From Urbifossiella limnaea (GTDB lineage: Bacteria > Planctomycetota > Planctomycetia > Gemmatales > Gemmataceae): 64,000 nt of DNA. The stretch spans positions 6,804,322 to 6,868,321 of the forward strand of contig NZ_CP036273.1 in the NCBI RefSeq assembly GCF_007747215.1, given 5' to 3'. A model generated the notes under the pieces. It was not told the DNA's origin, did not search any database, and saw only the letters and a list, made by a program, of their open reading frames with translations. This document shows, piece by piece, positions 57,417 to 64,000 of the stretch; the stretch's first letter is position 1; each line of letters begins with the position of its first letter. Both the position numbers and the translations under genes were made by a program.

Positions 57417-58601
57417 ATGACCCGCCGTCGAATAATTCTGTCCGCCGCCCTGTTCGCGGCCGCTTGCACGGCCTTCGCCCAGGAGCGAAGTGTCGCCCCC
57501 GGGATCAACGACCCGTTCAAGGAACCGGACGTCAAGGGGTTCCAGACCAAGTTCGAGGGCGAGAGCCGCGAGGTCTACGTCGCCCGGGAGAAGGTCGTGG
57601 CCGCGGTCGGGCTCAGGCCGGGGATGGTCGTCGCCGACGTCGGCGCCGGGACCGGCCTGTTCACCCGGCTGTTCGCGAACGCGGTCGGCCCGACCGGGCA
57701 GGTGTTCGCCGTGGACATCGCCCCGAAGTTCCTCGAACACGTCCAGAAGACGAGCCGCGAGGCCGGGCTGCGGAACGTCACCCCGGTGCTGTGCGCGGCC
57801 GACTCGGTGGACCTGCCGCCGGCGTCGGTGGACGTGGCGTTCGTGTGCGACACCTACCACCACTTCGAGTTCCCCGAGCGCACGCTGGCGTCGCTCCACC
57901 GGGCGGTCCGGCCGGGCGGGAAGCTGGTGGTGATCGACTTCGTCCGCGAGCCGGGCAAGAGCACGGACTGGGTGCTCAAGCACGTCCGGGCCGGGCAGGG
58001 CGTGTTCGAGCGGGAGATCGCGTCGGCCGGGTTCGTGAAAGAGGGCGAGGTAAAGGACGTGCTGAAGGAGAACTACCTGGTCGTCTTCACCCGGGCGAAG
58101 GACGCCGCGCCCGCCCCGCCGGGGCGGCCCGCGTCACTCACGCCCGCGATCCCCGGATACGGGGCGGTGGTACCGCTCCCGGGTGCGGCCGAGCCGCCGG
58201 TGAAGGGCACGAAGGTGGTGTTCGACGTGACCGCCGCGGGTAAGGACCCGGCCAAGCCGCCGCCGGGGCTGGAGCGGGCGGCGACGCTGCTCAACCTCGC
58301 CGTCGCGTCCGGGCTGAAGGCGTCCGACCTGGAGGTCGTGATCGTCCTCCACGGGGACGCGGCCGCCGTCGCGCTCACCGATCCGGCGTACCGTGTGGCG
58401 GTCGGCCACCCGCACCCGGCGGAGAAGCTACTGGGGTCGCTGACCGGGAACGGGGTGCGGGTGCTGGTGTGCGGGCAGTCGCTCGCCCGGAAGGGGTACG
58501 ACCCGGCGACCGTCCGGCCGGGCGTGACCGTCGCCGCGTCGGCCGTGACCGCAGTGGTGAACCTCCAGGCCCGCGGGTTCGCCTACGTCCCGGCTCACTG
58601 A
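57417..58601 (+). CDS. Exported SAM methyltransferase fused to a DsrE-like domain
   Basis: 394 aa. Residues 1-20 are a signal peptide (IILSAALFAAACTAFAQE; a Cys at the lipobox position is possible). Residues ~50-230 are a class I methyltransferase: VVADVGAGTGLFTRLFA (motif I), FAVDIAPKFL, DVAFVCDTYHHFEFPE and PGGKLVVIDFVREPG. Residues ~265-394 resemble DsrE/DsrF: VVFDVTAAGKDP, LNLAVASGLKASDLEVVIVLHGDAA and VLVCGQSLARKGYDP, the Cys of which matches the sulfur-carrying position in active DsrE proteins. Export of a SAM-dependent enzyme is unusual, since SAM is cytoplasmic. It converges on and overlaps the anti-sigma gene by 7 bases. Confidence 0.85.
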   Translation: MTRRRIILSAALFAAACTAFAQERSVAPGINDPFKEPDVKGFQTKFEGESREVYVAREKVVAAVGLRPGMVVADVGAGTGLFTRLFANAVGPTGQVFAVDIAPKFLEHVQKTSREAGLRNVTPVLCAADSVDLPPASVDVAFVCDTYHHFEFPERTLASLHRAVRPGGKLVVIDFVREPGKSTDWVLKHVRAGQGVFEREIASAGFVKEGEVKDVLKENYLVVFTRAKDAAPAPPGRPASLTPAIPGYGAVVPLPGAAEPPVKGTKVVFDVTAAGKDPAKPPPGLERAATLLNLAVASGLKASDLEVVIVLHGDAAAVALTDPAYRVAVGHPHPAEKLLGSLTGNGVRVLVCGQSLARKGYDPATVRPGVTVAASAVTAVVNLQARGFAYVPAH

Positions 58602-58846
58602 CCGGCGGCGGGGAACGCCTCGGCCCACTTCGCCCGGAGGGCGTCCCGCATCCGGTCCGAGAACGCCGCCGGCATCGGGTACGGCTCCCCGGCCTTGTAG
58701 AGGCGGATCGTCTTGCGGATGTTGTCCACCACCAGCTGGCACGGGTTGCACCCGGCCAAATGGTCGGCGAACTCGCGGTAGACGGCGAGGGCGTCCTCGG
58801 CGTCCACGTACTCGTTCAGGGCCTTCAGCAGTTCCTCGCAGCTCAT
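58595..58846 (-). CDS. Small zinc-finger anti-sigma factor
   Basis: 83 aa. MSCEELLKALNEYVDAED, then DHLAGCNPCQLVVDNI gives the C-x(n)-H-x3-C-x2-C layout of the ZAS/zf-HC2 domain that binds ECF sigma factors. There is no transmembrane segment, so it is soluble, like redox-sensing RsrA-type members whose Cys cluster releases sigma on oxidation. ATG 58846 lies 14 bases after the ECF stop: translational coupling. Redox sensing is inference. Confidence 0.85.
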   Translation of the reverse strand: MSCEELLKALNEYVDAEDALAVYREFADHLAGCNPCQLVVDNIRKTIRLYKAGEPYPMPAAFSDRMRDALRAKWAEAFPAAGQ

Positions 58847-58860
58847 CGCAGCCCCGCGGG

Positions 58861-59505
58861 TCAGCCGTGGCGGTGGTCGGGCGTCACCCGGGTGGCGGCG
58901 TCGCCGAACGTCCGGGTCAGAATCTCCCGGAGGGCGAGCCGGGCGCGGAGGAGGCGGACCTTCACGTTCGCCTCCGAGATCCCGAGCAGGTCGGCCGCCT
59001 CCCGGACCGAGAACCCCTCGATGTCGCGGAGCACGAACACCGCCCGGTACTTGTCGTCCAGCCCGGCGAGCGCCCGGTCGACGGCCGCCCGCACCTCGTG
59101 CCGCTCGGCCAGGTCGGCCGGGTCGGCCCGCCAGTCGGCGATGAAGTCCGGGTGCGGAACCTCGGCGTAGCCCTCGTCCGAACCCGCCGGGTCGGTCAGC
59201 GGGACGGTCGGCAGCCCCCGCCGCTTGCGGAGGTGCTTGAGCGCGTGGTTGGCCGCGATCCGCAGCACCCACCCGGCGACGGCCGACTCGCCGCGGAACT
59301 CCTTCAGGTGCTCGACCAGGCTGAGGAACGTCTGCTGGGCCACGTCCTCGGCGTCGTGCGGCTCCCCGAGCATCCGGTAGGCGAGCCCGTACACCCGGTT
59401 CTGGAGCCGGCCGACGAGGGCCTCGAACGCGGCGAAATCCCCACCCCGGGCCTTCAGCAGCAGGGGCAGGTCGGGGTCGTCGGGACGAGCCGGCGGGTCG
59501 GTCAT
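58861..59505 (-). CDS. ECF RNA polymerase sigma factor
   Basis: 214 aa. Region 2: FEALVGRLQNRVYGLAYRML and DAEDVAQQTFLSLVEHL; then WVLRIAANHALKHLRKRR. Region 4: LDDKYRAVFVLRDIEGFSV, then EAADLLGISEANVKVRLLRA. The linker (about 100-145) is longer than in minimal ECFs. ATG 59505 was chosen over an upstream frame because region 2 begins normally after ~25 residues. It is followed by the anti-sigma gene and preceded by the rhodanese gene on the same strand. Confidence 0.93.
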   Translation of the reverse strand: MTDPPARPDDPDLPLLLKARGGDFAAFEALVGRLQNRVYGLAYRMLGEPHDAEDVAQQTFLSLVEHLKEFRGESAVAGWVLRIAANHALKHLRKRRGLPTVPLTDPAGSDEGYAEVPHPDFIADWRADPADLAERHEVRAAVDRALAGLDDKYRAVFVLRDIEGFSVREAADLLGISEANVKVRLLRARLALREILTRTFGDAATRVTPDHRHG

Positions 59506-59563
59506 CGGCGGGGCCGGGTGGGCGGGGCGGTGGGATACCACCCCGCGGTAGATTACGGCCGCG

Positions 59564-59956
59564 TCACTTCGCCGGCTCGAACCCGGCCTTCACCAGCCCG
59601 TCGAACCCGTCCCGCAGGGGGCGGACGTCGTACCCCTTCCCCTTCAACAGGTCGGCCGCGGCCAGGCACCGCCGGCCGGACGCACAGTGGAGGTAGACGA
59701 TCGAGCCGGGCGGGAGGGTGGCCCGGAGCTTCTCGGCCGGCACGCCCGCCTTGAGGTTCGACAGGGCGACGTGCTTGGCCCCCTTCAGGTGCCCGTCGCC
59801 CCACTCGCCGGCCTCCCGCACGTCCACGATCACCGCCTTCCCGGCCGTCACGTTCGTCTTCACCACGTCCAGGCTGTCGGTCGTGTGGTCGGCGGCCCAC
59901 AGCACCCCGCCGAACGCGAACGCCGCCAGAACCCCCGCGCACGCCAGTCGCTTCAT
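59564..59956 (-). CDS. Periplasmic rhodanese (sulfurtransferase)
   Basis: 130 aa. Signal peptide residues 1-21 (CAGVLAAFAFGGVLWAAD). A single rhodanese domain: VIVDVREAGEWGDGHLKGA and the active-site loop LHCASGRRCLAAAD, where the Cys carries the persulfide and the S-G-R-R sequence shapes the loop. It would move sulfane sulfur to a thiol acceptor or cyanide in the periplasm. First gene of the rhodanese-ECF-anti-sigma set; 58 bases to the ECF gene. Confidence 0.92.
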   Translation of the reverse strand: MKRLACAGVLAAFAFGGVLWAADHTTDSLDVVKTNVTAGKAVIVDVREAGEWGDGHLKGAKHVALSNLKAGVPAEKLRATLPPGSIVYLHCASGRRCLAAADLLKGKGYDVRPLRDGFDGLVKAGFEPAK

Positions 59957-60163
59957 CGCCCAACCCCTCCGTGTGACGGAACCCCACCCGCCCGGCGGGC
60001 GGTCCTGGGTATGATCCGCGGCCTCCCCGAGAGGTTACACGGAATTATTCCGGGCGGCGGCGCGTAACTTTCCGCGCCGCCGCGGATCGAACCTTCAGAC
60101 GAACCCGTTCCGGCTACGCCACCATCCCGCCGCCGTGCCGAACCCGCGTAGGAGACCCCGGCC
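59957..60163. promoter_or_regulatory. Divergent regulatory region with operator-like dyad
   Basis: 207 bases between the rhodanese start (minus strand) and the plus-strand efflux operon. Contains CGGAAT-T-ATTCCG (60040-60052), a 6-bp dyad with one central base, in the only AT-rich spot. GGAACC-like elements occur on the plus strand at 59978-59984 and CGAACC near 60088; either could be an ECF -35, but no -10 is clear. Confidence 0.45.
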
Positions 60164-60358
60164 GTGTCGAACCCGAACCTCACCTGCTCCGTCACCCCGC
60201 CCCGCGACGCCCGCCGCCTCGCCCACCGCCGCCTCTGCGTCGCCGCCGGGGGGCTCGCCGTGCTCGGGGCCGTCCTCGCGATCGCCGTAGCCCCGGCGCT
60301 TGCGGTCCTGTCCGCGGCCGGCGGGTTGGCCCTGCTCCTGATCCCCGACCGCACCTGA
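60164..60358 (+). CDS. 64-aa membrane protein, first gene of efflux operon
   Basis: GTG 60164 with AGGAG (60150-60154) nine bases upstream. N-terminal ~20 residues are polar and contain one Cys; then LCVAAGGLAVLGAVLAIAV and LAVLSAAGGLALLLI form two close membrane segments. Similar two-span small proteins (DUF2892/YgaP membrane part) often accompany rhodaneses, but I cannot confirm this one belongs. The next start is 27 bases after its stop. Confidence 0.65.
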   Translation: MSNPNLTCSVTPPRDARRLAHRRLCVAAGGLAVLGAVLAIAVAPALAVLSAAGGLALLLIPDRT

Positions 60359-60384
60359 TGCCGACTTCCCACCCGGAGACGCAC

Positions 60385-60960
60385 ATGAGCGCCCGACGAT
60401 GCTTCGCAGCCCTCCTGGCCCTCGCCGCCGGGGTGCTGATGGCGACCGCCGGCGGGCCGGCCGCCGCCCAGCCGCCCGGCAAGGGACCGCCTGCCGGGAA
60501 GGGCCCGCAGGCGGGCAAGGGGAAGGCCGGCGACCCGGCCTTCGCCGCCGACCGCGACGGGTTCCACTACCTGCTCGAACACCGCAAGGACATCCGCCGG
60601 ACCGTCAAGGACGTCAACGGCGGGGTCGTGACGCTCACCGAGTCGGACGACCCGGCCGTCGCCGGCAAGATCCGCGAGCACGTGTCCGCGATGCACGCGC
60701 GGGTGAAGACCGGGAACGGCGTCCACTACCGCGACCCGCTGTTCGCCGAGATCTTCCGGCATTACGACAAGATCACGATGACGGTCGAGCGGACCCCGAA
60801 GGGGGCGAAGGTGACCGAGACCTCGGCCGACCCGTACGTCGCCAAGCTGATCCAGGCGCACGCCCTGGTCGTGACGAAGTTCATCGAGAACGGCCACGCC
60901 GAGGTGATGAAGAACCACCCGCTGCCCGCCGCCCCGGCTCCGGCACGGAAGCAGCCGTAG
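60385..60960 (+). CDS. Exported protein of two 60-residue histidine repeats
   Basis: 191 aa. Signal peptide to about residue 29, a Gly/Lys/Pro linker (30-50), then two tandem copies in exact 60-residue register with no gaps: residues 60-110 and 120-170. Identities include Phe60/120, His66/126, Ile70/130, Thr73/133, Val74/134, Gly80/140, Ser87/147, Asp89/149, Pro90/150, Val92/152, Ala93/153, Ile96/156, His99/159 and Gly110/170. Paired His suggest a metal or haem site in each half. I recognise no named family. ATG 60385 has GGAG 7 bases upstream; ATG 60358 overlaps the previous stop but lacks one. Confidence 0.8.
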   Translation: MSARRCFAALLALAAGVLMATAGGPAAAQPPGKGPPAGKGPQAGKGKAGDPAFAADRDGFHYLLEHRKDIRRTVKDVNGGVVTLTESDDPAVAGKIREHVSAMHARVKTGNGVHYRDPLFAEIFRHYDKITMTVERTPKGAKVTETSADPYVAKLIQAHALVVTKFIENGHAEVMKNHPLPAAPAPARKQP

Positions 60961-60972
60961 GAGGTGCCGCAC

Positions 60973-61119
60973 GTGTCCGAACAACCGACCGGCCCCGCCC
61001 CGAGCGGGGCTTCCCCAACCGCGAGTCGAGCCGTGGAGCTTCTCGTTCTGCTCGGTATCTTCGTGCTCTGGGTCGTCCTCCAGGTCTGGGTGCTGCCGAA
61101 GGCCGGCGTGCCCACCTGA
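60973..61119 (+). CDS. 48-aa single-span membrane protein
   Basis: GTG 60973 has a near-perfect GGAGGTG (60960-60966) seven bases upstream, overlapping the previous stop. Polar N terminus (SEQPTGPAPSGASPTASRAV), one transmembrane helix (LLVLLGIFVLWVVLQVWVL) and a short PKAGVPT tail. Too small for many gene finders. Placement between the repeat protein and the adaptor suggests a small accessory subunit of the pump. Confidence 0.7.
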   Translation: MSEQPTGPAPSGASPTASRAVELLVLLGIFVLWVVLQVWVLPKAGVPT

Positions 61120-61202
61120 ATGGGCGGCGCGTGCGAGCCGCGGTCGCGGCCCGAACGCACGCCCCCGACGACGCCCGACCCGACCCCGGACGAGAGGACG
61201 CC

Positions 61203-62336
61203 GTGACCATCCCACACCCCGCGCCGACGCCCCCGCCCGCGGCCGGGCGGTGGCGGTCCACGCTCGGCTCACTCGCCTCGGCCGCCGCCGGGGTGGCCGG
61301 GCTCGTCCTGTTCCTCGCCTGGATGGGCGGGGCGTTTCGGGACAAGGTCCGGCCCGGCGAGGTGCCCGCGCCCCGGGCCTCGGCCGCCGGCCGCACGCTC
61401 GTCGCCGCCGAGCGGGTGACCGAGCCGCAGACCGAGGCGGCCGTCGGCAGCGTCCAGCCGAAGAAGCGGACGGAGGTGGCGAGCCAGCTCCTCGCCGGGG
61501 TGCTGGAGGTGAAGGCCCGCCCCGGCGACCGGGTCCAGACCGGCGCCCCCCTCGTCACGCTCGACGACCGCGAGCTGGCCGCCCAGCAGCGGGAGGCGCT
61601 GGCCGCCCTGACGGCCGCCGACGCGGACCTGGTGACCCGCCGGGCCGACTTCGAGCGGGCGAAAAAGGCGCGGGCGAGCGGGGCCGTCAGTGACGACGAG
61701 TTCGGCAAGGTCGAGGGCGCGTTCCGGGTGGCCGAGGCCCAGGCCGGGCGGGGGCGGGAGGTGATCGCCCGGCTGGCCGTCCAGCTCACCTACACGAAGC
61801 TCACCGCGTCCGGGCCCGGGCTGGTTTCTGAACGGCTCGTCGAGCCGGGCGACCTGGCCTCCCCGGGGAAAACCTTGCTCGTGATCTACGACCCGGCCGA
61901 CCTCGAACTCCACGCCAACATCCCCGAGAGTTTGGCCAAGGCGGTCGCCGTCGGGCAGTCGCTACCCGTCTACGTCCAGGCTCCCGACCTTCACGTCATC
62001 GGCACCGTCCGCGAGGTCGTGCCCCTCGCCCAGCAGGCGACCCGGTCGGTCCTCGTCAAGCTGACCCTTCCGCCACCCCCGGCCGGCAAGACGCTCCTCC
62101 CCGGGATGTTCGGCCGGGTCGAAATCGGGACCGGGACCGCCGACCGGCTGTGGGTGCCGTCGGCGGCGGTGCGCCGGATCGGGCAACTCGACCTGGTCGA
62201 GGTCGCCGGGGCGGACGGCACCCTCGGCCGCCGCTTTGTCCGCGTCGGCCAGGAGCGGAAGCGGGGCGGGGTGGACGCGACCGAAATCCTCTCCGGCCTG
62301 ACCGCGGGCGACCGGGTCGCGCTCCCTTCCAAGTAA
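61203..62336 (+). CDS. RND efflux periplasmic adaptor (second system)
   Basis: 377 aa from GTG 61203 (GAGAGGA ~6 bases upstream). An uncleaved anchor (SAAAGVAGLVLFLAWMGGAF) rather than a lipobox. Biotinyl-lipoyl halves: AGVLEVKARPGDRVQTGAPL and LTASGPGLVSERLVEPGDLA; between them a short coiled coil (about 130-190). Beta-barrel: DLELHANIPESLAKAVAVGQ. Followed 18 bases on by the pump. It is not closely similar to the adaptor at 13221. Confidence 0.9.
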   Translation: MTIPHPAPTPPPAAGRWRSTLGSLASAAAGVAGLVLFLAWMGGAFRDKVRPGEVPAPRASAAGRTLVAAERVTEPQTEAAVGSVQPKKRTEVASQLLAGVLEVKARPGDRVQTGAPLVTLDDRELAAQQREALAALTAADADLVTRRADFERAKKARASGAVSDDEFGKVEGAFRVAEAQAGRGREVIARLAVQLTYTKLTASGPGLVSERLVEPGDLASPGKTLLVIYDPADLELHANIPESLAKAVAVGQSLPVYVQAPDLHVIGTVREVVPLAQQATRSVLVKLTLPPPPAGKTLLPGMFGRVEIGTGTADRLWVPSAAVRRIGQLDLVEVAGADGTLGRRFVRVGQERKRGGVDATEILSGLTAGDRVALPSK

Positions 62337-62354
62337 CCACCCCCGGAGTCCGCC

Positions 62355-64000
62355 ATGAGCACCGACCGCACCGACGGCGGGTTCGTCTCCCGGGTGGTCG
62401 AGGCGTTCCTCACCGGAAACCTGTCCGTCCTCCTCGTCCTGGTCATGCTGGCCGGCGGCGTCGCCGCCCTCGCGCTGACCCCGCGGGAGGAGGAGCCCCA
62501 GATCGTCGTCCCGATGGCGGACGTGTTCGTCCGCATGCCCGGGGCCAGCGCCGAGGAGGTCGAGCAGCTCGTCTCGTCCAAGCTGGAGCGGCTCCTCTAC
62601 CAGATCGACGGGGTCGAGTACGTGTACTCGATGTCCCGCCCCGGCGAGGCCGTCGTGACCGTCCGGTTCCACGTCGGGGAGAGCCGCGAGGGGTCGCTGG
62701 TCAAGCTGCACAACAAGATCATGATGCACACCGACGTGGTCCCGCCCGGGGTTACGGGGTGGGTGGTCAAGCCGGTCGAGATCGACGACGTGCCGTTCGT
62801 CGCCGTCACCCTGTGGGGGAAGACGGCCGACGACTTCGCCCTGCGGCGGGTGGCCGAGCAGGTCGAGGTCGCGCTCCAGGGCGTGCCCGACACCGGCCGG
62901 ACCGAGGTGGTCGGCGGCCGCCGGCGGCAGCTGCGGATCACGCTCGACCCGGAGCGGATGGCCTCCCGCCAGGTCACCCCGCTGGACGTGGACCGCGTCC
63001 TCCGCGGGGCGAACGTCGGCCTCCGGGCCGGCGAGCTGCGGGCCGGTAGCCGGGAGGTCGCGGTGGACAGCGGCCCGTACCTCCAGTCGGCCCGCGAGCT
63101 GGAAACGCTCGTCGTCGGGGTGTTCGCCGGGAAGCCGGTCTACCTCAAGGAGGTGGCCGAGGTGGCCGACGGCCCGGAGGAGCCGACCGGGTACACCCGC
63201 ATCGCGTTCGGCCCCGGCGCCGCCCGCGCCCCGCCCGAGGCCGCGACCGGGTCCGACTTCCCGGCGGTCACCGTCGGCGTCGCCCGGCGGAAGGGGAGCA
63301 ACGCCGTCGCCGTCGCCCACGCGATCGAGGCCCGGCTGGCCGAACTGCGGGCGACGGTCATCCCGCACGACGTCGAGGCCCGCGTCACCCGGAACTACGG
63401 CGAGACGGCCGACGAGAAGGTGAGCGAGCTGGTCCGCGAACTCGGGCTGGCGATCGTCATCGTCGCGGCCCTCATCATGTACGCCCTCGGCTGGCGCGAG
63501 GCGGTCATCGTCGTCACCGCGGTGCCGCTCACGTTCGCCCTCACGCTGCTCGTCAACTACCTGGCCGGGTACTCGATCAACCGGGTCACCCTGTTCGCCC
63601 TGATCCTCGCTCTCGGGCTGGTGGTGGACGACCCGATCGTGGACGTGGAGAACATCTTCCGCCACTTCGGGCTCCGGCGGAAGCCGCCGCGCGAGGCCGT
63701 GCTGGAGGCGGTCAACGAGGTCCGCCCGCCGATCATCGTGGCCACCCTGGTGGTGATGGTGTCGTTCCTCCCGATGCTGTTCATCACCGGGATGATGGGG
63801 CCGTACATGCGGCCGATGGCGCTGAACGTCCCGGTCGCCATGCTGATGTCGATGGTGGTGGCGTTCACCGTCACCCCGTGGCTCAGTTACCACGTCCTGA
63901 AGGGCGTGTACGGCAAGGGCGGGCACGAGCCGACCGACCCGCACCGCACGCTCACCTACCGCGCCTACCGCGCCGTGCTCACCCCGTTCCTGAACTCCCG
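62355..64000 (+). CDS. RND efflux permease, N-terminal 548 residues
   Basis: Runs off the window. TM1 (LSVLLVLVMLAGGVAALAL) is followed by REEEPQIVVPMADVFVRMPGAS, a start typical of RND pumps that swap the R-R-P motif of AcrB. Porter domains follow, then LALGLVVDDPIVDVENIF in TM4 with the two proton-relay Asp residues. Sequence near the end (MRPMALNVPVAMLMSMVVAF) is TM5-6. The pattern resembles pumps annotated as hydrophobe/heavy-metal or acriflavin-like; the substrate cannot be assigned. Confidence 0.92.
   Translation, partial: MSTDRTDGGFVSRVVEAFLTGNLSVLLVLVMLAGGVAALALTPREEEPQIVVPMADVFVRMPGASAEEVEQLVSSKLERLLYQIDGVEYVYSMSRPGEAVVTVRFHVGESREGSLVKLHNKIMMHTDVVPPGVTGWVVKPVEIDDVPFVAVTLWGKTADDFALRRVAEQVEVALQGVPDTGRTEVVGGRRRQLRITLDPERMASRQVTPLDVDRVLRGANVGLRAGELRAGSREVAVDSGPYLQSARELETLVVGVFAGKPVYLKEVAEVADGPEEPTGYTRIAFGPGAARAPPEAATGSDFPAVTVGVARRKGSNAVAVAHAIEARLAELRATVIPHDVEARVTRNYGETADEKVSELVRELGLAIVIVAALIMYALGWREAVIVVTAVPLTFALTLLVNYLAGYSINRVTLFALILALGLVVDDPIVDVENIFRHFGLRRKPPREAVLEAVNEVRPPIIVATLVVMVSFLPMLFITGMMGPYMRPMALNVPVAMLMSMVVAFTVTPWLSYHVLKGVYGKGGHEPTDPHRTLTYRAYRAVLTPFLNS

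Follow-up and report, generated by a model that had tools for sequence, protein, structure and literature searches.

A probable sulfide and sulfane-sulfur defence module with an ECF sigma/zinc anti-sigma switch in the planctomycete Urbifossiella limnaea

In this work, we analyzed a 64,000-nucleotide stretch of the Urbifossiella limnaea genome (a single 7.8 Mb contig, NZ_CP036273.1; positions 6,804,322 to 6,868,321), hereafter called the window. Its last genes, from position 57,417 on, encode an exported methyltransferase-DsrE fusion, an exported rhodanese, an extracytoplasmic function (ECF) sigma factor with a zinc anti-sigma factor, an exported tandem-repeat protein, two small membrane proteins, and the adaptor and pump of a resistance-nodulation-division (RND) efflux system. 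These genes probably constitute a module of defence against sulfide and sulfane sulfur, a variant of the BigR/SqrR-type systems in which an ECF/zinc anti-sigma pair takes the place that an ArsR-type repressor has in relatives. Comparison of genomes shows a conserved gene set, a shared divergent promoter, a neighbourhood of sulfur genes and, in some relatives, ArsR in place of the ECF pair. The features of the window are as follows (TM, transmembrane).

57417..58601, plus strand: exported fusion of a methyltransferase (PF08241, E 1e-18) and a DsrE domain (PF02635, 44 bits, cut-off 22.7), 394 aa
58595..58846, minus strand: soluble CHCC-type zinc anti-sigma factor, 83 aa (zf-HC2 22.1 bits, just missing the cut-off of 22.2)
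58861..59541, minus strand: ECF sigma factor (PF04542 64.3 bits, PF08281 62.7 bits, both above cut-offs)
59564..59956, minus strand: exported single-domain rhodanese with active-site Cys, HCASGRRC (PF00581, 50.7 bits, cut-off 22.2)
60013..60039, minus strand: putative promoter of the rhodanese-ECF-anti-sigma operon, TGTAAC-N16-GGATC (weight-matrix score 32.0, the top of the window)
60063..60088, plus strand: putative divergent promoter of the pump operon, CGTAAC-N15-GGATC (weight-matrix score 21.9, second in the window)
60164..60358, plus strand: 64-aa membrane protein, relative of the YgaP-like TM domain, PF11127 (by hhalign; no Pfam match of its own above cut-off)
60388..60960, plus strand: exported tandem-repeat protein with two helix-strand-strand-helix units, no known family
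60973..61119, plus strand: 48-aa single-TM microprotein ending in WVLPKAGVPT (family searched with the first 43 residues)
61203..62336, plus strand: RND periplasmic adaptor (TIGR01730, 156.9 bits, cut-off 94.9)
62355..64000, continuing to L009:13015, plus strand: RND pump, AcrB/MexB (HAE-1)-like (PF00873, 337 bits for the part in the window)

On the minus strand, the order of transcription is rhodanese, ECF sigma factor and anti-sigma factor; the plus-strand genes follow divergently, from the 64-aa membrane protein through the repeat protein, the microprotein and the RND adaptor to the RND pump. The anti-sigma gene adjoins the ECF gene on its downstream side, as it does in relatives, and converges with the methyltransferase-DsrE gene, which it overlaps by 7 bases. 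The ECF gene has an alternative ATG start at 59505, and the pump gene extends beyond the window, the whole protein being 1,112 aa long (L009:9677-13015, where L009 is the locus of the window cluster).

All genes named in a preliminary description of this region were found, at about the positions given there, and the neighbours, which it had expected to be conserved together elsewhere, are so conserved: the genes for the anti-sigma factor, ECF sigma factor, exported rhodanese and RND pump are clustered in 12 of 95 genomes of the family (G000, G260, G261, G263, G264, G265, G266, G290, G293, G298, G299, and G313; in G265 a contig break falls inside the ECF gene). Nine of these 12 carry the repeat protein within the cluster (G260 as a C-terminal fragment only) and nine the methyltransferase. 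None of 20 control loci, taken around methyltransferase or DsrE genes with no repeat protein nearby, held an anti-sigma factor, ECF factor, periplasmic rhodanese or pump above thresholds. The repeat protein as such was detected in 12 of 246 phylum-wide genomes (two of them weakly) and in 19 of the 95 family genomes (one weakly); weak matches within long unrelated frames were dropped (G154, G013, and G258), and loci L035 and L036 were excluded.

Orthologs of the pump, with 46-100% identity, were found in 23 of the 95 family genomes, the next best listed match having 31% (scores were computed for the seven top candidates of a first look in each genome). Close relatives of the anti-sigma factor, defined by an E-value below 1e-25 (next best, 1.7e-10), are present in 18 of these genomes, and any match with E ≤ 0.001 in 45 of the 95. 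All 18 genomes with a close anti-sigma factor carry the pump ortholog (hypergeometric 3e-15, with relatedness ignored), and 15 of them have the two genes no more than about 10.5 kb apart on a single contig; the cluster of G265 is interrupted by a contig break, and in G282 and G319 the two genes are on different contigs. The pump-side operon starts with a thioredoxin gene in G263, G290, G293, and G298, and in G265 with a thioredoxin gene (recognized by its WCGPC motif) followed by one similar to sulfide:quinone oxidoreductase (SQR).

Between the rhodanese and pump operons there is a mirror-image pair of TGTAAC-N15/16-GGATC sites. If C is accepted in place of the first T, 11 of the 12 cluster genomes, window included, have both sites, the exception being G313 (locus L197), with one imperfect site. 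When spacers of 8-24 were permitted, 29 matches were obtained in 15 module loci (five related loci, L106 and L194-L197, were left out of this count), and the spacing was always 15 or 16; the number of matches averaged 0.43 and never exceeded 2 in 60 dinucleotide shuffles, and it was zero in the 20 control loci. In a scan of the window with a weight matrix built without it, the next best score in 64 kb after the two sites was 9.8, and the maxima elsewhere were 17.4 in the best of five shuffled windows and also 17.4 in one of four control loci. As the training loci come from the same family as the window, these scores are a confirmation by homology and not an independent test. The preliminary description had proposed that the sigma factor switches on sulfur handling and the extrusion of a toxic product, and had pointed to the regions upstream of 57417, 59956, and 60164 as places to look for a shared motif. 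Such control is supported for the rhodanese and pump operons, where one sigma-linked promoter type precedes 59956 and 60164. For the methyltransferase-DsrE gene, the ten highest matrix scores of the window include no correctly oriented site upstream of 57417, and the inclusion of that gene in a promoter-defined regulon was dropped as unsupported.

Genome-wide, the exact pattern was found 45 times in 14 genomes with a close anti-sigma factor (the reversed pattern 3 times), and since 31 of these matches fall in the cluster, the regulon looks local. A wider regulon in the window genome was considered and rejected: its three other exact matches lie in loci without matches to the reference proteins, and single exact matches are equally frequent in genomes lacking a close anti-sigma factor (49 in total in 18 chosen genomes). 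In genome G249, motif sites precede SQR-like, rhodanese-YgaP, and Sulf_transp genes as well as a pair of genes encoding a persulfide dioxygenase (PDO)-like protein and a repeat-DsrE fusion. A variant, TGTAAC-N15-GGCTCT, stands ahead of sulfide genes and beside an orthologous ECF gene in other planctomycetes (L135, L137, L158, and L168). Motif sites were also observed between the ECF and anti-sigma genes (L135:1142, L158:5881, and L176:6094), which suggests a separate anti-sigma promoter in those genomes.

Five of the 23 pump genomes (G284, G285, G247, G248, and G283) are without a close anti-sigma factor. The window cluster looks like a BigR-type variant because in most of these, i.e., G284, G285, G247, and G248, the pump operon has an ArsR gene as a neighbour and the motif is absent. 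The pump loci of G284 and G285 also contain rhodanese(-YgaP) genes and genes similar to CoA-disulfide reductase (CDR); in G283 the pump contig is 6.6 kb long, and no regulator was named in that stretch. The ArsR proteins beside the pump share 55-66% identity with an ArsR protein of a sulfide cluster, and four cysteine columns are invariant among 17 ArsR proteins of related loci; in our reading, made without an alignment with BigR, two of these columns match Cys42 and Cys108, the redox pair of BigR (PMC5823870). Among 56 loci (eight of them chosen by their anti-sigma factor), none had both ArsR and ECF/anti-sigma genes, 16 had ArsR only, 22 ECF only, and 18 neither (p = 6e-5); when the count was confined to the 48 repeat loci containing a sulfur or rhodanese gene, the respective numbers were 0, 16, 14, and 18 (p = 0.0016). 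As the same pump stands beside the other regulator type in some relatives, the switch of a sulfide-defence kit appears to have been exchanged during evolution.

The sulfur role proposed in the preliminary description was largely supported by the neighbourhood of the repeat protein in relatives. Fusions of the repeat domain with a DsrE domain that resembles the one in the window methyltransferase fusion occur in other planctomycetes, and the genes for them adjoin SQR-like, PDO-like, CDR-like, TauE, and rhodanese-YgaP genes. The names SQR and CDR (a CoA-disulfide-reductase-like protein with rhodanese) were taken from the best NCBIfam models, with scores below the curated cut-offs, and PDO-like proteins were named from their two Pfam domains, metallo-beta-lactamase and rhodanese. 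A scan of named genomes yielded 63 loci, mostly planctomycete, with Acidobacteria and one Armatimonadetes bin included. The locus table comprised 100 loci (L106 and L198 excluded), reduced by 11 duplicates to 89, of which 81 had the repeat domain; L100 and L101, neighbouring stretches of one contig, were counted as two loci. At least one of five sulfur types (SQR-, PDO-, CDR-, TauE-, and rhodanese-YgaP-like) occurred in 38 of the 81 repeat loci vs. 1 of the 20 controls, and 52 of the 81 had a sulfur type, a periplasmic rhodanese or the pump clade. Two half-length Sulf_transp genes and a Tll0287-like gene are likewise situated within the sulfide cluster of G249 (L096:12230-14071).

The sigma factor is assigned to the ECF group by its regions 2 and 4 (PF04542 and PF08281), both above cut-off, and has a conserved promoter ahead of its own operon (60013-60039 and orthologous sites). 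The anti-sigma factor contains the zinc motif C3-x25-H29-x3-C33-x2-C36, intact in 21 of 22 compared orthologs (that of L197 is without C3 and H29), and thus belongs to the CHCC-type zinc-binding anti-sigma factors (RsrA group), defined by His-x3-Cys-x2-Cys and a Cys 23-26 residues N-terminal to it (PMC4960319). Because the N-terminal Cys of this motif is required for oxidative release of RsrA (PMC4960319), a thiol-reactive signal is plausible for the window anti-sigma factor. The likeness to SigR-RsrA of Streptomyces (PMC4960319) concerns the soluble single-domain CHCC protein and the adjacent ECF partner gene; in contrast, the window anti-sigma factor scores 22.8 bits with the RsrA equivalog model (TIGR03988), below its cut-off of 62.5, and the window regulon appears local and devoted to sulfur and efflux.

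A general response to thiol oxidation by disulfides or electrophiles, of the SigR-RsrA kind, in which the rhodanese, thioredoxin and HAE-1 pump would make up a thiol-stress and drug-efflux regulon, is in our opinion an unlikely explanation of the cluster. The RsrA-like CHCC motif, the thioredoxin gene in the operon of several relatives and the HAE-1 type of the pump would fit it; however, it accounts poorly for the location of 31 of the 45 exact motif matches within the cluster, for the finding that the regulator standing next to this pump in place of the ECF pair is an ArsR repressor whose group occurs in sulfide clusters, and for the SQR-, PDO-, and TauE-like genes in the clusters of relatives.

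The window rhodanese is a member of its family by PF00581, above cut-off, and its active-site Cys is kept in all 11 compared orthologs. In an hhalign comparison, the 64-aa membrane protein aligned over 36 columns with the TM part of rhodanese-YgaP proteins (probability 95.6, E 1.3e-8). YgaP of E. coli consists of a rhodanese and TM helices; as the 64-aa protein is related to this TM domain, the two window proteins resemble a split YgaP, sharing with it the rhodanese and the YgaP-like TM domain and differing in that they are encoded by two separate genes and the rhodanese is exported.

The DsrE domain of the methyltransferase fusion is DsrE/DsrF-like (PF02635 above cut-off, with the conserved Cys), and all 39 related DsrE domains keep [VIL]CG[QH] (recognized by pattern in 31 and by eye in 8, one of which ends right after the motif). 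The methyltransferase is present in 20 of 21 loci examined; all 20 have the S-adenosyl methionine (SAM)-binding motif [VI]AD[VI]G[AS]GTG, and nearly all have a hydrophobic N-terminus (weak in L135). The score with the UbiE/COQ5 methyltransferase equivalog model was 61.3 bits vs. a cut-off of 378, and arsenite methylation was rejected, the ArsM models scoring at most 53 bits vs. cut-offs of at least 263. The methyltransferase, exported as judged from its sequence and with an intact SAM motif, is the loosest part of the module. The methyltransferase-DsrE gene occurs without adjoining module genes in G250, G267, G269, and G320, and in G293, G298, and G299 it comes immediately after the pump gene, in the same orientation; at the level of gene order, recurrent adjacency and this direct position after the pump in three relatives tie the fusion to the module.

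For the window repeat protein, no Pfam or NCBIfam match above cut-off was obtained, and among its 52 relatives each of the Pfam matches shown covers at most 5, with a best E of 2.7e-4. Its two helix-strand-strand-helix units were predicted with a pLDDT of 84.9, and its invariant residues include Arg, His, Met, and His. Comparison with solved structures gave a best Foldseek E of 0.07 and VIA-align Z of at most 5.6 over 79 residues (root-mean-square deviation 3.0). No candidate for a known fold or solved relative was convincing; in the profile comparison, the top match was to a designed protein (E 0.0053). A search of 118 loci detected the microprotein family in 26, with members in 20 of 81 repeat loci, in 18 of 29 pump loci and in none of the 20 controls; in L027, L028, L147, and L163 it extends into a tail with at least two cysteines. 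In L103 (4362-7452) and L104, a distant ECF gene (35%), a gene for a 273-residue protein, a Met/His-tailed repeat protein and a rhodanese lie together, by gene content a further ECF-repeat-rhodanese arrangement. Ferritin-like genes adjoin the repeat protein in two genomes (L101:98-769 and L031:8531-9070).

The window pump is an RND protein of the HAE-1 type by its ACR_tran domain and its best solved relatives, which are AcrB/MexB-type. As a whole it scores 350 bits with the HAE-1 model TIGR00915 (cut-off 940) vs. 271 with the CusA/CzcA model TIGR00914, both below cut-off. It shares with AcrAB/MexAB-type systems the combination of an adaptor and an AcrB-like pump; unlike them, it forms a separate branch (at least 46% identity among the family orthologs and at most 31% to the other listed RND pumps), is accompanied by the microprotein and sulfur genes, and has no outer-membrane factor in the window between the adaptor and the rhodanese operon.

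Defence against a thiophilic metal such as copper, with the sulfur proteins binding or precipitating the metal and the pump exporting it, appears quite improbable. It would draw on the His and Met residues among the invariant positions of the repeat protein, on the Met/His-rich tails of the repeat proteins of L103 and L104 and the Cys-rich tails of those of L030 and L090, on a weak CusF match in one of the 52 repeat members (E 0.015), and on the adaptor, for which CzcB/NccB is the second-best NCBIfam model (102 bits, cut-off 319) and the best Pfam model includes CusB. Yet the pump itself fits the HAE-1 model better than the CusA/CzcA one and resembles AcrB/MexB-type structures, and the recurrent labelled neighbours are sulfur genes.

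Just outside the window, the pump gene is followed by genes for a histidine kinase and an NtrC-type regulator (L009:13230-16131); similar histidine kinase/response regulator pairs adjoin an RND pump in L031 and lie upstream of the pump genes in L239. They were not kept as parts of the module, because in most module loci these labels do not recur beside the pump. Some 4 kb beyond the first RND pump gene there is a second one, with about 25% identity to it (L009:17055-19499). MacAB-like sets near repeat-protein or SQR-like genes were noticed in L135, L143, L161, L168, L176, and L178 (adaptor, permease, and ABC ATPase, labelled by size and adaptor match, with a Pfam check for FtsX and MacB_PCD on the L168 permease only); possibly they are an alternative exporter.

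We propose the following course of events for the sulfide and sulfane-sulfur defence module. Reactive sulfur, or another thiol oxidant, would attack the Zn-Cys site of the soluble anti-sigma factor, and the released ECF sigma factor would, as the comparative evidence suggests, read both divergent TGTAAC-N15/16-GGATC promoters, leading to transcription of the rhodanese-ECF-anti-sigma operon and of the operon encoding the YgaP-like TM protein, the repeat protein, the microprotein, and the RND system. Judging by families and neighbours, the exported rhodanese and the repeat protein, probably together with the DsrE domain of the methyltransferase fusion, may take up or pass on extracytoplasmic sulfane sulfur, and, as the weakest step, the HAE-1-type pump might expel a sulfur-bearing toxic product (e.g., an organic persulfide, a polysulfide or a methylated thiol). 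In a more specific version, reactive sulfane-sulfur species would be exported across the envelope by a dedicated branch of RND pumps together with its own single-TM microprotein and a new exported repeat domain; the switch would be a persulfide-sensing ECF/zinc anti-sigma pair, replaced in relatives by a BigR-like repressor. We put this version forward only tentatively, as we consider it rather doubtful.

Several observations weigh against the proposed sulfur defence. No PDO- or SQR-like gene above threshold is present in the window cluster, the SQR query gave only a weak partial match in the window genome, and 29 of the 81 repeat loci have none of the listed sulfur genes, periplasmic rhodanese or pump clade. 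HAE-1 pumps carry many substrates, and an extracytoplasmic SAM-dependent enzyme has no obvious supply of SAM. As to the promoter, besides its absence ahead of the methyltransferase gene, no exact site was found in the related loci L106 and L194-L197, the pump contigs of G282 and G319 (separate from the anti-sigma contigs) are without the motif, and the most distant anti-sigma genomes (G286, G313, G318, and G319) have 14 exact matches, none in the cluster. Over all 81 repeat loci, the exclusion between ArsR and ECF has p = 0.06, and the loci are related to each other. Finally, both types of control coexist in the window cell, since its genome has a second sulfur locus at about 699-704 kb (L005 and L004) with ArsR, rhodanese-YgaP and CoA-disulfide-reductase-rhodanese-like genes; regulator exchange, as read from these loci, is per locus.

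That the genes are merely independent adjoining units with no common function is highly improbable and, for the two divergent operons, already contradicted by an adjacency kept in 12 genomes and a promoter pair in 11 of them, while it may apply to the methyltransferase gene, which is without a motif here and stands apart from module genes in the four genomes named above.

Among described systems, the BigR operon of Xylella and Agrobacterium comprises an ArsR-type sulfide sensor, the transferase-dioxygenase Blh, and TauE (PMC5823870). The window cluster shares with it the sulfur-transferase logic, a local regulator and a transporter, and in relatives its repeat protein is found together with ArsR, TauE-like and PDO-like genes; it differs in having the ECF/anti-sigma pair, the exported rhodanese and repeat protein, and the RND pump, with neither an ArsR-type repressor nor, above threshold, a persulfide dioxygenase in L009. 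For the sHdrR/SoxR/BigR-family regulators of Hyphomicrobium and relatives, the targets listed in PMC12423496 include RND efflux pumps, TauE and YeeE-type transporters, and RND pumps are thus named there among the targets of sulfane-sulfur-responsive ArsR regulators; control is by an ArsR repressor in that case and by an ECF factor in the window. A search of titles and abstracts of open-licence papers gave no description of this module or of ECF control of such a set. The preliminary description, which had regarded the assembly as new, was in this respect half right, as the cluster looks like a re-wired BigR-type sulfide cluster.

Bacterial sulfide sensing has been described for ArsR-type repressors such as BigR (PMC5823870 and PMC12423496). 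If the proposed role is true, an ECF/zinc anti-sigma pair with a defined promoter would represent a second regulatory logic for sulfide sensing, and the cluster would clearly exemplify the exchange of a regulator beside a detoxification kit that is itself conserved. It would also link an uncharacterised exported domain, a microprotein and an RND branch to sulfur defence, giving testable roles to proteins without a known family.

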